From NCBI GenBank assembly GCA_021808315.1, contig JAKBBY010000002.1, positions 1 to 64,000 of the forward strand: a DNA stretch of 64,000 nucleotides. Reading direction: 5' to 3'. The notes under the pieces were generated by a model, which made no database searches, had not been told where the DNA came from, and saw only the letters and a program-made list of their open reading frames with translations. The stretch is from Pseudomonadota bacterium. GTDB taxonomy: Bacteria > Pseudomonadota > Alphaproteobacteria > Acetobacterales > Acetobacteraceae. How positions within the stretch are numbered: the first letter of the stretch is position 1; the number at the start of each line of letters is the position of its first letter. A program made the translations under genes and the position numbers. Below are positions 56,610 to 63,687 of this stretch, in pieces.

Positions 56610-58430
56610 TCAATCGGGCGCATCCTCGTCGCTCTCGCCGCGCTCGGCCCGCTTCAGCGCCTGGGTGAGCGAGACCAGCCGGTCCCAATGGCCCGGATCG
56701 TTGGTCTCGCGCCATCGCCGATGTTGCTCGGCGCATTGGTCGCGCAACCAATCGAGATTCATCAGGCCAAAAATACCATACCAGCAGGCTTCGATGTCGG
56801 GCCGGAGCGCGTCAGGGCGCGACACGATGGATGGCAGCGTTTCAGCCTCAATGCTCGACATTAAATCCCCGAAACCTGATGTGCGGAGATGGTCAACCAA
56901 GGCCGCGCTGTCAAGAGCCTCGGCGCAATTCGCCCACTCAATCAGGGCTGCCCGCAACGCTGTCAGCGATGCAGGCAGATCAAGGGCAACCAGCGCCTCA
57001 TCGAAATTGGGGATCAGCGCCGGATGTTTCAACAAAATTCCGAGCAACAGACGCGCCCGCCGCTCTTGGGTGCGTTCGGGCGCAATCACCGGGCGCACCA
57101 AGCCGAGCGGTCGGCGCACCGGTGCCGCGCCGCGCCGCTGATCGGTAAATCCCGCGCGCTCCGGGCGCGCCGGGCGCGCCGGGCGGGCCGCAAAAAACCG
57201 ATCCAGCAAGCTGCGCCGCATCTCGCTCGCCAAAGCCCGGTCGGTAATCTGCCCCGCCGCCGCTTCCAAGCGCCGCCGCAGCGCCGCACGGCCCTCCGGT
57301 CCCGCCTGATCCGCCCCTTCCGCCAGCAAGCCAAACAAGGCCTCATCCAAGGGGCGCGCGCCAGCCAGCACCGCCGCAAATCCCGCCGCCCCGGCTTTAC
57401 GCACCAGACTATCGGGGTCTTCATCATCCGGCAGCCGCGCCACCATCAATGACCGATCAGCGGCCAAAGACGGCAAAGCCCGCTCAATCGCCCGCAACAT
57501 CGCCCGCCTGCCCGCCTTGTCACCATCCAAACACAGCACCGGCATCGGTGAAACCCGCCATAATTCGGCCAAATGCGCCTCGGTCAGCGCGGTGCCGAGC
57601 GGCGCCACCGCCCCGCCAAATCCGGCCTCATGCAGCGCAATCACATCCATATAGCCTTCCACCACCAGCAGCCGCGCCCCCTGGCGCAAAGCCGCACGCG
57701 CCCGGTCCAGCCCATAGAGCGTGCGACTCTTGGAAAATACCGCCGTTTCCGGCCCGTTCAGATATTTCGGCTCGCCCGCCCCCAGCAGCCGACCGCCAAA
57801 ACTGACAATCCGTCCCCGCCGATCACGGATCGGGAACATCAACCGGCTGTAGAAATAATCAACCGGCCCGCGCTCGCCTTGCTTCATCAAACCGGCCTCG
57901 ACCAGCCGCTCCGCGCTCACCCCCTCGCGCCCCAGCGCCGCGAGCAACGCGCCGCGCCCCTCGCCAGACCAACCCAGCGCAAACCGCTCAATCGCCGCGC
58001 GATCCAACCCACGCTGGGCCAAATAGGCCCGCGCCGCCGCCCCTTCGGGCAGCATCAACCGCCGCTGATACTCTGCGCCGGCCATTGCCAGCACCGCCAT
58101 CACCCCCGCCTCGCGAGAGGCTTGCTCCGCCGCCTGCGGATCAGATTTGGGCAATTGCATCCCCGCCTCGCCCGCCAGCCGTTCCACCGCCTCGGTAAAA
58201 CTCGCCCCCTCGCTCTGCATCACGAAACTGATCGCATCACCATGCGCGCCGCAGCCAAAACAATGGAAATGATCGTCATACACGTAAAATGACGGCGTCT
58301 TTTCGTTATGAAACGGGCAACAGCCCTTTTGCTCGCGCCCCGAGCGAGTCAAGCGCACCCGCTTGCCGATTAGTGCTGCAATCGGCGTGCGCGTGCGCAA
58401 TTCATCCAGAAAAGGCGCCGGCCAATTCAT
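56610..58430 (-). CDS. dnaG: DNA primase
   Basis: Zinc-binding CCPFHNEKTPSFYVYDDHFHCFGCGAHGD and TOPRIM VVEGYMDVIALHEAG. Confidence 0.96.
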   Translation of the reverse strand: MNWPAPFLDELRTRTPIAALIGKRVRLTRSGREQKGCCPFHNEKTPSFYVYDDHFHCFGCGAHGDAISFVMQSEGASFTEAVERLAGEAGMQLPKSDPQAAEQASREAGVMAVLAMAGAEYQRRLMLPEGAAARAYLAQRGLDRAAIERFALGWSGEGRGALLAALGREGVSAERLVEAGLMKQGERGPVDYFYSRLMFPIRDRRGRIVSFGGRLLGAGEPKYLNGPETAVFSKSRTLYGLDRARAALRQGARLLVVEGYMDVIALHEAGFGGAVAPLGTALTEAHLAELWRVSPMPVLCLDGDKAGRRAMLRAIERALPSLAADRSLMVARLPDDEDPDSLVRKAGAAGFAAVLAGARPLDEALFGLLAEGADQAGPEGRAALRRRLEAAAGQITDRALASEMRRSLLDRFFAARPARPARPERAGFTDQRRGAAPVRRPLGLVRPVIAPERTQERRARLLLGILLKHPALIPNFDEALVALDLPASLTALRAALIEWANCAEALDSAALVDHLRTSGFGDLMSSIEAETLPSIVSRPDALRPDIEACWYGIFGLMNLDWLRDQCAEQHRRWRETNDPGHWDRLVSLTQALKRAERGESDEDAPD

Positions 58431-58894
58431 CGGGCGGCTAATTTTTCTTTCACCAGCGCCGAGGTCACCCCCATATCCAAATCCGTCCCATGCGCCTGTT
58501 TCAGCGCCGCGATCACCTTGCCCATATCCTTGGGCCCGGCCGCTTCGGTGCTGACAATCGCCTGCTCCACCGCCGCCGCCAGCGCCGCCCCCTCCAGCGT
58601 GCGTGGCAGAAATTCCTCGATAATCGCGATTTCCGCCGCTTCCTTGTCTGCAAGCGCGGGACGATTGACCGCCCGATATTGCGCTTCGGATTCCCGGCGC
58701 GATTTCACCATGCCGCGCAGCATCGCAATAATCTCGGCATCGGGAATTTCCATCACCCCTTTAGGCCGGGCGGCAATGTCAAAATCCTTCAACCGCGCGC
58801 TCATCATGCGCAGCGTCGAAACCCGCAGCGCGTCACCCGCACGCATCGCCACCTTCACACTCTCCATTATCTGCGCCCGCAACGCTGAACTCAT
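58427..58894 (-). CDS. yqeY: GatB/YqeY domain-containing protein
   Basis: MSSALRAQIMESVKVAMRAGDALRVSTLRMM...; ATGA overlap with dnaG. Confidence 0.9.
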   Translation of the reverse strand: MSSALRAQIMESVKVAMRAGDALRVSTLRMMSARLKDFDIAARPKGVMEIPDAEIIAMLRGMVKSRRESEAQYRAVNRPALADKEAAEIAIIEEFLPRTLEGAALAAAVEQAIVSTEAAGPKDMGKVIAALKQAHGTDLDMGVTSALVKEKLAAR

Positions 58895-58949: not shown

Positions 58950-59004
58950 CCGGAAAAAATTTCCGGTTTTCCAGCCGCGATATTGAACCCGGATTTAATT
59001 TCCG
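58950..59004. promoter_or_regulatory. Paired palindromes in the yqeY-carA divergent region
   Basis: CGGAAAAAATTTCCG (58951-58965) and CGGATTTAATTTCCG (58990-59004), 12/15 identical, centres 39 bp apart. Confidence 0.6.
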
Positions 59005-59019
59005 ATATGCCTCGCAATC

Positions 59020-60372
59020 ATGCCCCTGTCCATAGAATCCCTGATTGATCGGCTCGGCGGCCCGGACGCCGCCGCCAAACTCACCGCCGTCTCGACCGAA
59101 GCGGTGCGGAAATGGCGCAGCACCGGCGCAATCCCCTCGCGTCATTGGCCCACCGTGCTCGCCGCCACCGGCCTGAGCCTCGATGATCTGCCGGGCGGGG
59201 TCAATCACGCGGCATCCACCCGCAAGCCCGATCGCGCCACCGCCGCCTTGGTGCTCGGCGATGGGCGGGTATTCTGGGGCATCGGCTTTGGCGCGCCCAG
59301 CAGCGCCGATCAACAGCCCGCCGAATTGTGCTTCTCCACCGGCATGGCGGGTTACCAGGAAACCCTGACCGATCCCTCCTTTGCTGGCCAAATCATCACC
59401 TTCACCTTCCCCCATGTCGGCAATGTAGGCACCAATGCCGAGGATATCGAGGCCCGTCAGAGTTTCGCACGCGGCCTCGTGCTCAACCGGCCCATCAGCA
59501 AACCCTCAAACTGGCGCTCCACCGCATCGCTCGATGAATGGTGCGCCCGCATCGGCCTCTCGGGCATCCATAGCGTCGATACCCGCGCCCTCACCCTCTC
59601 CATCCGCGATGACGGCGCCCCCAACGCGCTGCTCGCTTTTCCGCACGACCAGAAATTCGACATCCCCGCCTTGGTCGCCCAGGCGCGCGACTGGCCCGGC
59701 CTCACCGGCATGGACCTTGCGGGCGCAGTGTCTTGCACCCAACCCTATGAATGGACCGAAACACTTTGGGACCGCGTTACCGGTTTCGGCCAGCAAACCG
59801 CGCCCTCATACACGGTGGTTGCGGTCGATTACGGCGCCAAACGCAATATTTTCCGCAATCTCGCGAGCGTCGGCTGCCGGGTGATCGTGGTGCCCGCCAC
59901 CAGCACCGCCGAGGATATTTTGCGCCACCGCCCCGATGGCGTGTTTCTCTCCAACGGCCCCGGTGATCCCGCCGCCACCGCCCGCTATGCGGTGCCCGCG
60001 ATCCGCCGGGTGCTTGAGGCAAAAATTCCGCTGTTCGGCATCTGCCTCGGCCACCAGCTCCTCGCGACCGCCCTCGGCGGCAAAACCTACAAGCTCGCGC
60101 GCGGCCATCGCGGCGCCAATCAGCCGGTGCAAGAGCTCGCGACCGGTCGGGTCGAAATCACCAGCCAAAATCACGGTTTCGCGGTCGATGAAGCCTCACT
60201 GCCGCACGGCGTCATCATCACCCACCGCAGCCTGTTCGATGGCTCGAACGAGGGCATCGCCTGCCCGGCGCAAAATTGCTTCTCGGTGCAATATCACCCC
60301 GAAGCCAGCCCCGGCCCGTCAGATGCCAATCACCTATTCAGCCGCTTCACCGCCATGATGCGCACCCCCTGA
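59020..60372 (+). CDS. carA: Carbamoyl-phosphate synthase small subunit with N-terminal HTH-like domain
   Basis: Canonical CarA from about residue 70 (AALVLGDGRVFWGIGFG) with GICLGHQLLATALG amidotransferase; residues 1-60 resemble Cro/YdaS-type HTH. Confidence 0.94.
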   Translation: MPLSIESLIDRLGGPDAAAKLTAVSTEAVRKWRSTGAIPSRHWPTVLAATGLSLDDLPGGVNHAASTRKPDRATAALVLGDGRVFWGIGFGAPSSADQQPAELCFSTGMAGYQETLTDPSFAGQIITFTFPHVGNVGTNAEDIEARQSFARGLVLNRPISKPSNWRSTASLDEWCARIGLSGIHSVDTRALTLSIRDDGAPNALLAFPHDQKFDIPALVAQARDWPGLTGMDLAGAVSCTQPYEWTETLWDRVTGFGQQTAPSYTVVAVDYGAKRNIFRNLASVGCRVIVVPATSTAEDILRHRPDGVFLSNGPGDPAATARYAVPAIRRVLEAKIPLFGICLGHQLLATALGGKTYKLARGHRGANQPVQELATGRVEITSQNHGFAVDEASLPHGVIITHRSLFDGSNEGIACPAQNCFSVQYHPEASPGPSDANHLFSRFTAMMRTP

Positions 60373-60429: not shown

Positions 60430-63400
60430 ATGCCCAAGCGCACCGACCTGCACTCGATCCTGATCATCGGCGCCGGCCCGATTGTCATCGGCCAAGCTTG
60501 CGAGTTCGATTATTCCGGCGCCCAGGCCTGCAAAGCCCTGCGCGAGGAAGGCTACCGCGTCATCCTGGTCAATTCCAATCCCGCCACCATCATGACCGAC
60601 CCGGAATTGGCAGACGCCACCTATATCGAGCCAATCACGCCCGAGATGGTGGAAAAAATCATCATCAAAGAGCGCCCGGACGCCCTTCTGCCCACCATGG
60701 GCGGGCAAACCGCGCTGAACACCGCGATGACCTTGGCCAAATCCGGCATTCTCGCCAAGCACGGCGTCGAATTGATCGGCGCCAAGGCCGAGGTGATCGA
60801 TCGCGCCGAGGACCGACTGAAATTCCGCGACGCGATGGCCGAAATCGGGATCGAAAGCCCGAAAAGCCGCATCGCGCACTCGCTCGATGAGGCGAAAGCC
60901 GCCCTAGAAATTGTCGGCTTGCCCGCCGTGATCCGCCCATCCTTCACCCTCGGCGGCACCGGCGGCGGCATCGCCTATAACCGCAGCGAATTCTTCGACA
61001 TCGTCGCGGGCGGGCTCGACGCCTCCCCCACCACCGAAGTGCTGATCGAAGAAAGCGTGCTCGGTTGGAAAGAATATGAAATGGAAGTCGTGCGCGACAG
61101 CGCCGATAATTGCATCATCATCTGCTCCATCGAAAATATCGACCCGATGGGCGTGCATACCGGCGATTCCGTCACCGTCGCCCCGGCCCTGACCCTGACC
61201 GACCGCGAATTGCAAATCATGCGCGACGCCTCGATTGCCTGCCTGCGCAAAATCGGCGTCGATACCGGCGGCTCCAACGTGCAATTCGGCATCAACCCCG
61301 CCGATGGCCGCATGGTGGTGATCGAGATGAACCCGCGCGTCTCGCGCTCATCGGCCCTGGCCTCCAAAGCCACCGGCTTTCCGATTGCCAAAATCGCCGC
61401 CAAACTGGCCGTTGGCTACACGCTCGATGAATTGCGCAACGACATCACCAAAGTCACACCTGCGAGTTTCGAGCCGACCATCGATTACGTGGTGGTCAAA
61501 ATCCCCCGCTTCACCTTCGAAAAATTCCCCGGCACACCCGCCGTGCTGACCACCGCGATGAAATCGGTCGGCGAAGCCATGGCGATGGGCCGCAGCTTCC
61601 CCGAAGCCCTGCAAAAAGCCCTGCGCAGTCTCGAAACCGGCTATGCCGGCCTCGACCCGATCGAGCCACCCGGCGATGGCACGCATGACGCCTATCGCGC
61701 CGCGCTCTCCACCCCGCGCCCGGATCGCTTGCTGATCGCCGCCGCCGCCCTGCGCGCTGGGCTGAGCGTCGCGGACATCCATAACGCCTGCAAATTCGAC
61801 CCCTGGTTCATCGAGCAGCTCGCTTTGATCATCGAGGCCGAAAACCAGGTCAGCACCCAAGGCCTGCCCGATGACGCGGATGGTTGGCGCGCGCTCAAAG
61901 CCATGGGCCTATCCGATAGGCGATTAAGCACCCTGTCCGGCCTCCCCGAAGCCGACATCGCCACCACCCGCCAACGGCTCGGCGTGATCCCCACCTATCG
62001 CCGCATCGATAGCACCGCCGGCGAATTCGCCTCCGCCACCGCCTATCTCTACGCCACCTATGAGGGCGGTTTCGGCACCCCCCATTGCGAGGCCGAGCCG
62101 AGTGCGCGCACCAAAATCGTGATCCTCGGCGGCGGCCCGAACCGGATCGGCCAAGGCATCGAGTTCGATTATTGCTGCGTCCACGCCGCCTACGCCCTGC
62201 GCGATGCCGGGTTTGAGACCATCATGGTCAATTGCAACCCCGAAACCGTCTCCACCGATTACGACACCTCCGACCGGCTCTATTTCGAACCCTTATTCGC
62301 CGAAGACGTGTTAGCCCTGATCAAGCGCGAACAAGCCAACGGCCAACTGCTCGGCTGCATCGTGCAATATGGCGGGCAAACCCCGCTGAAACTCAGCCAA
62401 GCCCTCGCCGCCGCCGGCATCCCCATCCTCGGCACCTCCGCCGATGCGATCGATATCGCCGAAGATCGCGAACGCTTCCAAACCCTGCTGCACCAGCTCG
62501 GCCTGCGCCAGCCCGAAAACGGCATCGCCCGCTCCGCCGATGAAGCCGAAGCCATCGTCGCGCGCATCGGCTTCCCGGTGGTCATCCGCCCGAGCTACGT
62601 GCTCGGCGGGCGCGCCATGGAAATCGTCTATGACCTCACCAATCTGCGCCGCTACATGCGCGAGGCCGTGGTGGTCTCGGGCACCAACCCGGTGCTGATT
62701 GATCGCTATTTGAACGACGCCATCGAAGTCGATGTCGATTGCATCGCCGATGGCGAAACCGTCTATGTCGCAGGCGTGATGGAACATATCGAAGAAGCCG
62801 GCATTCACTCGGGCGATAGCGCCTGCTCGCTGCCGCCCTACTCGCTCTCCCCCGCCATCATCGATGAGTTGCGCGCCCAAACCGAAGCCATGGCCAAAGC
62901 CCTCAACGTGGTCGGGCTGATGAATGTCCAATTCGCCATCCAGCGCGATCAAGCGGGCGGCGACAATGTCTATGTGCTCGAAGTCAATCCGCGCGCCTCG
63001 CGCACCATCCCCTTCGTCGCCAAAGCCACCGGCATCCCGGTCGCCAAAATCGGCGCGCGGGTGATGGCTGGCGAAAAACTCGCCGATTTCCATCTCGACC
63101 CCAGCCTTATGCGCCGCCATGTCGCGGTCAAAGAAGCCGTCTTCCCCTTCGCCCGCTTCACCGGCGTCGATGTGCTGCTCGGCCCGGAGATGAAATCGAC
63201 CGGCGAAGTCATGGGGCTGGATGCCAGCTTCGCCCGCGCCTTTGCCAAAGCCCAGCTCGGCGCCGGCGTCAAATTGCCGCAAGCAGGCACCGTGTTTCTG
63301 TCCGTGCGCGATGCCGATAAATCCGCCATCATCCCCATCGCCCGCCGCTTCATCGAACTCGGCTTTTTGCTCCGCGCCACCCGCGGCACCGCCGCCCATC

Positions 63401-63687
63401 TCGCCAGTGCCGGCATCGCTGCCGAGCCGGTCAATAAAGTGCTCGAAGGCCGCCCCCATTGCGTCGATGCGATTCGCTCCGGCGAAATCGACCTCGTGAT
63501 CAACACCGCCTCCGGCGCGCAAACCGTCGCCGACAGCTTCGATATCCGCCGCTCCGCCCTCACCCACGGCGTGCCGCACTTCACCACCATCGCCGGTGCG
63601 CGCGCCGCCTCGCACGCCATTTCCGCCCTCGCGGCGGGCAACCTTGATGTTGCGCCGCTTCAGTCGTATTTTCGTGCCTCGTTCTGA
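60430..63687 (+). CDS. carB: Carbamoyl-phosphate synthase large subunit
   Basis: 1085 aa, duplicated ATP-grasp and MGS domain. Confidence 0.97.

Follow-up and report, generated by a model that had tools for sequence, protein, structure and literature searches.

CarA of the Acetobacteraceae, the family of the acetic-acid bacteria and their relatives, begins with an extra HTH domain, and our comparison of the gene across the family makes it very likely that this enzyme subunit is a 'trigger enzyme' that regulates its own gene as single target, probably as a repressor, through two palindromes in the carA promoter. Binding and the sign of regulation are inferred from sequence alone, and any effector is conjectural. 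CPSase supplies both arginine and pyrimidine synthesis as their first enzyme, and the control of its expression is little known outside the enteric model. Here the control is seemingly built into the enzyme, with one protein, two operators and a promoter spacer that is itself an operator, and the design is conserved in a family to which bacteria used for making vinegar and cellulose industrially belong. The stretch of DNA analyzed (the window, 64,000 nucleotides) comes from a metagenome-assembled genome (MAG) of the genus Acidiphilium, and contains the following features.

58427..58894, minus strand: yqeY, divergent neighbor (Pfam PF09424, 2.6e-36)
58950..58966, no strand: putative distal operator CCGGAAAAAATTTCCGG, a perfect 17-bp palindrome kept in the genus alignment and across the family
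58983..58988, plus strand: -35 element TTGAAC; TTG is 95-99% conserved at this register in 95 loci
58989..59005, no strand: putative proximal operator, with CGGATTTAATTTCCG at 58990-59004, occupying the 17-bp promoter spacer
59006..59011, plus strand: -10 element TATGCC; TATR at this register in 95 loci, second-position A in 94%
59020..60372, plus strand: carA with N-terminal HTH, 450 aa (Pfam PF00988 and PF00117; TIGR01368)
59020..59196, plus strand: Cro-like HTH domain, residues 1-59 (NCBIfam carph-isopro), with AlphaFold2 helices at 5-12, 15-22, 26-35 and 40-50
59092..59127, plus strand: recognition helix including both ends (residues 25-36), with covariation between the outer operator base and residues 25, 34 and 36
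59194..59238, plus strand: flexible linker joining the HTH to the enzyme (about residues 59-73); pLDDT is low at 59-63 and secondary structure is absent up to residue 74
60430..63687, plus strand: carB, from the open reading frame list, starting 57 nt past the carA stop and probably co-transcribed with carA; its product, recognized from sequence, is what we take to be CarB

Two palindromes upstream of carA

A first-pass annotation of the window had reported two near-identical palindromes between yqeY and carA, and every part of that description was confirmed. The first, CGGAAAAAATTTCCG at 58951-58965, lies inside the distal 17-bp palindrome and is identical to the second, CGGATTTAATTTCCG, at 12 of 15 positions; the distance from centre to centre (58958 to 58997) is 39 bp, and 15 nt separate the end of the second from the carA ATG at 59020. 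Both are inverted repeats with A/T-rich centres, the distal one being the better palindrome of the two in the Acidiphilium alignment. When up to two mismatches are allowed, CGGAWWWAATTTCCG has five matches in the window (one of them site 1 read in reverse) against 1.4 +/- 1.1 expected, a count that none of 100 shuffles reaches, while exact CGGAAANNNTTTCCG occurs only once in the 2.78-Mb genome, at the distal palindrome.

The HTH domain of CarA

The extra N-terminal domain, of about 60 residues, precedes the CPSase small-chain domain and is a genuine coding feature under amino-acid constraint. This rests on its retention in all 12 same-genus genomes searched, on a within-genus pN/pS of 0.03-0.32 for residues 1-57, where synonymous change far exceeds amino-acid change, and on a match of residues 5-57 to NCBIfam NF046037 (carph-isopro) at 66.4 bits, above the membership cut-off of 38. 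The domain is related to the Pfam families P22_Cro and YdaS and is not filed under either because its scores (18.9 versus 30.2 bits and 14.4 versus 30, respectively) fall below the gathering thresholds. Sequence and profile matches in the PDB are to Cro proteins (2e-4 to 0.04), and a Foldseek search with the AlphaFold2 model of the domain ranks the N15, Xfaso and P22 Cro proteins first (probability 1.0, TM 0.62-0.71, E about 0.02). Together with the model, these matches support a Cro fold with its HTH at helices 2-3. The catalytic part is intact, as judged by a TIGR01368 score of 428 bits and a GATase GICLGHQ stretch that is invariant in 35 relatives.

Conservation of the sites across the family

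Nearly every carA in 150 Acetobacteraceae genomes starts with this HTH. We collected and oriented the carA upstream regions and scanned them for GGAA-N5-TTCC. At least one site within one mismatch was present at all 145 HTH-carA loci (chance, 12% per locus), an exact site at 139 (0.7%), and a pair of sites within one mismatch at 132 (0.8%), leaving 13 loci with one clear site alone. The 80 named loci of the Acetobacteraceae type, from Acidiphilium, Acetobacter, Komagataeibacter, Asaia, Rhodopila, Elioraea and others, all agree, with the caveat that they partly repeat genomes of the 145-locus set. For the start of the last site the commonest position is 27-28 nt ahead of the ATG, and the two sites are most commonly 38-40 bp apart. 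Spacings of 37-41 bp predominate (129), followed by 42-44 (17) and 49-50 (11), with none at 45-48; helical phasing between the two sites is no more than a possibility, since one clade supplies most of the 44-bp spacings.

Chance resemblance in an A/T-rich spacer can be all but ruled out as an explanation. The motif is short and its excess within the window alone is modest, which speaks for chance; against it stand the presence of sites at every one of the 145 loci, the probability below 1% each for exact sites, and the agreement of the named loci. The first-pass annotation had proposed that the palindromes are operators through which the CarA HTH regulates its own gene, an idea that absence of the motif from other HTH-carA genes would have refuted. 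The proposal passes that test, as it does the other computational tests applied, and is supported by sequence comparison, including the contrast, which the annotation had suggested, with carA genes that lack the HTH, where the sites are missing, and a specificity base that varies in step with the two ends of the recognition helix; physical binding and the sign of regulation are inferred, and any effector is conjectural.

Sites follow the HTH rather than yqeY

No sites were found at the nine usable carA loci without the HTH, seven of which come from other families and two from one Acetobacteraceae genus (a tenth locus, L148, is cut off by the end of its contig and is left out). The divergent yqeY still adjoins carA in eight of these nine. 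Conversely, yqeY is absent within about 1.5 kb at 14 of 128 HTH-carA loci, and the ones examined retain their sites. The motif thus tracks the HTH and not yqeY, which we considered as the owner of the motif and rejected. In one small-genome genus of the Acetobacteraceae (G057 and G143; loci L154 and L155), HTH and operators have both been lost, and G057 nests beside a relative that has both (SH-aLRT 99, on a long branch).

Covariation of the operator with the recognition helix

The operators fall into two types, CGGAA-N5-TTCCG in Acidiphilium and some others and GGGAA-N5-TTCCC in most genera. The outer half-site base is G in 389 of 430 arms belonging to CarA proteins with Q34, and C in 36 of 42 arms of those with S34, with some Q34 proteins having C-type or mixed sites. 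An unbiased mutual-information scan over all HTH columns at 177 loci, made without correction for relatedness, placed residues 34, 25 and 36 on top (0.29, 0.28 and 0.23 bits above shuffles, with the next column at 0.14). Since the AlphaFold2 recognition helix spans residues 26-35, these three positions mark its two ends. In a tree built from the CarA body without the HTH, the operator type switches five times; four of the switches accompany a change of residue 25 from G to S or T, and in the fifth (L090/L091) GTE at the start of the helix is replaced by GLD. A phylogenetic sign test would need more switches than these five. The pattern matches what direct recognition of the DNA by the HTH would predict, an inference made without binding data.

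The proximal site is the promoter spacer

Alignment of 95 loci on the proximal site revealed a common order of TTG(A/C)NN, the 17-bp operator, TATRNN, 6-7 nt, and the ATG. This register analysis leaves out loci with the last site farther from the ATG (60-130 nt upstream), as in Acetobacter and Komagataeibacter. The second site had earlier been described as standing in a repressor-like position on the basis of its distance from the ATG, and this holds more strongly than claimed, for the site fills the space between -35 and -10. Blocking of polymerase is the natural reading of this arrangement, and remains an inference. Because the -10 element stands only 6-8 nt ahead of the ATG (6-7 nt in most loci, 8 nt in the window), the carA transcript likely starts at the ATG or immediately upstream of it and probably has no leader, again as inferred from the promoter pattern. 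A stricter generic sigma-70 scan reported nothing, including the TATGCC -10, and a terminator scan was also empty.

Two alternative readings bear on this architecture. In the first, HTH-CarA binds and chiefly activates carA from the distal site, which has its centre at about -61. This is a usual position for an activator, and in Acidiphilium the distal site has the better dyad symmetry; however, the proximal site occupies the spacer in 95 loci, where it should hinder polymerase, and the promoter has its own recognizable -35 and -10, so that we regard activation as unlikely. In the second, the palindromes would act as RNA hairpins, in a leader structure or a terminator, rather than as operators. 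Inverted repeats with A/T-rich centres could be so read, but both palindromes precede the point where transcription is inferred to begin, no terminator was reported by the scan, and the sites covary with CarA residues, which leaves this reading next to no room.

Target range

Genome-wide scans point to a single target. The pair pattern matched in 30 of 60 family genomes, at carA save for an array in G060 and one place in G084. The full 17-bp operator matched 93 times in 100 genomes, compared with 7 matches of its reversed control, and among the places examined its matches outside carA are about at the control level save in G100, with 11 copies. No second copy of the HTH domain was found in the window's genome. 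As matches outside carA are near background and there is no second domain copy, the system looks dedicated to one gene, with operators essentially only at carA, a result shown by comparison. A regulon of further genes with carA sites was considered and rejected, nothing recurrent beyond carA having appeared in the scans.

Two repeats account for exceptions. The array in G060 (C1:2413-2536) is iteron-like, with repeats of GGAACGAGGTTCC, and the 11 places in G100 are copies of a repeated TGGGAAGGTGTTTCCCA element; both are unrelated repeats that fit a loose pattern.

A rival to autoregulation is a separate, stand-alone regulator that binds the palindromes while the CarA HTH serves some other role, such as protein interaction. 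There are no binding data to exclude it, and promoter palindromes are typical of ordinary dimeric regulators. Against it, the sites are gained and lost along with the CarA HTH, the specificity base follows the CarA recognition helix, the genome has no other copy of the domain, and the sites are essentially confined to carA. We consider a separate regulator very unlikely.

Proposed mechanism

In the mechanism that we favor, autoregulation by CarA itself, the Cro-like HTH would dimerize on the two closely similar palindromes (15-17 bp) of the carA promoter, and binding at the proximal site, between -35 and -10, would block RNA polymerase. A second dimer at the distal site, about 39 bp upstream, would probably bind cooperatively with the first, for example through a CarA-CarB tetramer; two dimers on sites at this distance would fit a protein able to form higher oligomers. 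The signal may be the plain level of CarA or, alternatively, UMP or ornithine acting through CPSase oligomerization. In Escherichia coli, CPSase forms dimers and tetramers according to effector, ornithine favoring the tetramer and UMP the alpha-beta heterodimer (PMC6245113), so end-product feedback through the oligomeric state would have the less expected sign.

What comparison shows is conservation of the sites, their dependence on the HTH, the covariation, the promoter register and the single target. Binding, repression over activation, cooperativity and the leaderless start are inferences, and covariation and conservation lend only indirect support to DNA binding and transcription control, that is, to trigger-enzyme status. 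Weighing against the proposal are the absence of binding or expression data, the small number of switches, the mixed sites of some Q34 proteins, and the single-site loci.

Similar fusions in other alphaproteobacteria

Similar HTH domains head other enzymes in other alphaproteobacterial families (HisZ, PyrB, CoaBC, NnrD and GlmU). These fusions were studied less deeply than carA, and the enzyme names come from Pfam matches and sequence recognition. In 14 of 15 loci, HTH-HisZ (family f49, L293-L307) is preceded, close to the ATG, by two TTCAT-N5-ATGAA sites with a spacing of about 39-40 bp, the same layout as at HTH-carA with a different sequence. At HTH-PyrB (f113; L308, L309 and L311), all three HTH loci share the palindrome TTGCG-N5-CGCAA, with its centre about 50 nt upstream of the ATG; it was not found at the checked pyrB siblings without the HTH. 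HTH-CoaBC (f109, L331-L360) carries arrays of TTCACA/TGTGAA half-sites before the gene in many of about 30 loci.

Single or less certain cases were also seen. An HTH fused to an NAD(P)H-hydrate epimerase-like protein (NnrD; L386, G272:C17) has TGTACGTATTTTACGTACA 11 nt before its ATG, one HTH-GlmU (L264, G039) has the palindrome-like GGAATTTAATTCC upstream, and HTH-crotonyl-CoA reductase-like genes (family f131; L274, L275 and L390) show, by eye, CGTCAA and TTGACG half-sites with an approximately fixed 13-bp gap. The proteins L361-L389 are long, probably membrane-anchored, and headed by carph-isopro of the GGIRPMA.KL..P.TTVQGWK type.

Most other carph-isopro proteins in the class are of this long, apparently anchored kind (L361-L389) and lack conserved upstream palindromes, so the domain alone does not imply autoregulation. 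A bolder reading, likely in our view and based on sequence only, is that of a recurrent module in which a Cro-like HTH is placed before unrelated biosynthetic enzymes (CarA, PyrB, HisZ, CoaBC, NnrD, GlmU and perhaps crotonyl-CoA reductase), each with dedicated palindromes in its own promoter. These would form a self-repressing class whose operator varies with the recognition helix.

Comparison with known systems

Trigger enzymes as a kind are already known (PMC8249747). Searches of the literature for HTH-CarA, carph-isopro and YdaS-enzyme fusions returned nothing relevant, including no paper on the function of the carph-isopro domain; NF046037, of which the CarA HTH is a member, only names a domain. 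The literature searched appears to contain no description of the carA case, of the operator-as-spacer promoter or of the recurrence of such fusions across enzymes. The parallel PyrB, HisZ and CoaBC fusions suggest a general route to self-limiting enzymes, and the natural variants of recognition helix and operator are a ready test set for HTH specificity.

Three known systems offer likenesses. E. coli carAB is also controlled by trigger enzymes and end-product regulators (PepA, PyrH, PurR and ArgR; PMC6245113), but there the DNA-binders are other proteins, whereas in the Acetobacteraceae it would be the enzyme subunit itself. The phage Cro proteins of N15, P22 and Xfaso share their fold, and probably their binding mode, with the CarA HTH; Cro acts in a phage switch as a small protein on its own, in contrast to the CarA domain, which heads a housekeeping enzyme. 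PutA, a proline dehydrogenase with a DNA-binding domain, is a metabolic enzyme and trigger enzyme that binds at its own promoter region, as HTH-CarA is inferred to do, and is reported as a single-target regulator (PMC8249747). PutA is a ribbon-helix-helix protein. It serves catabolism and is switched by substrate and membrane, whereas HTH-CarA joins a Cro-like HTH to a biosynthetic enzyme and has a putative operator that is the promoter spacer.
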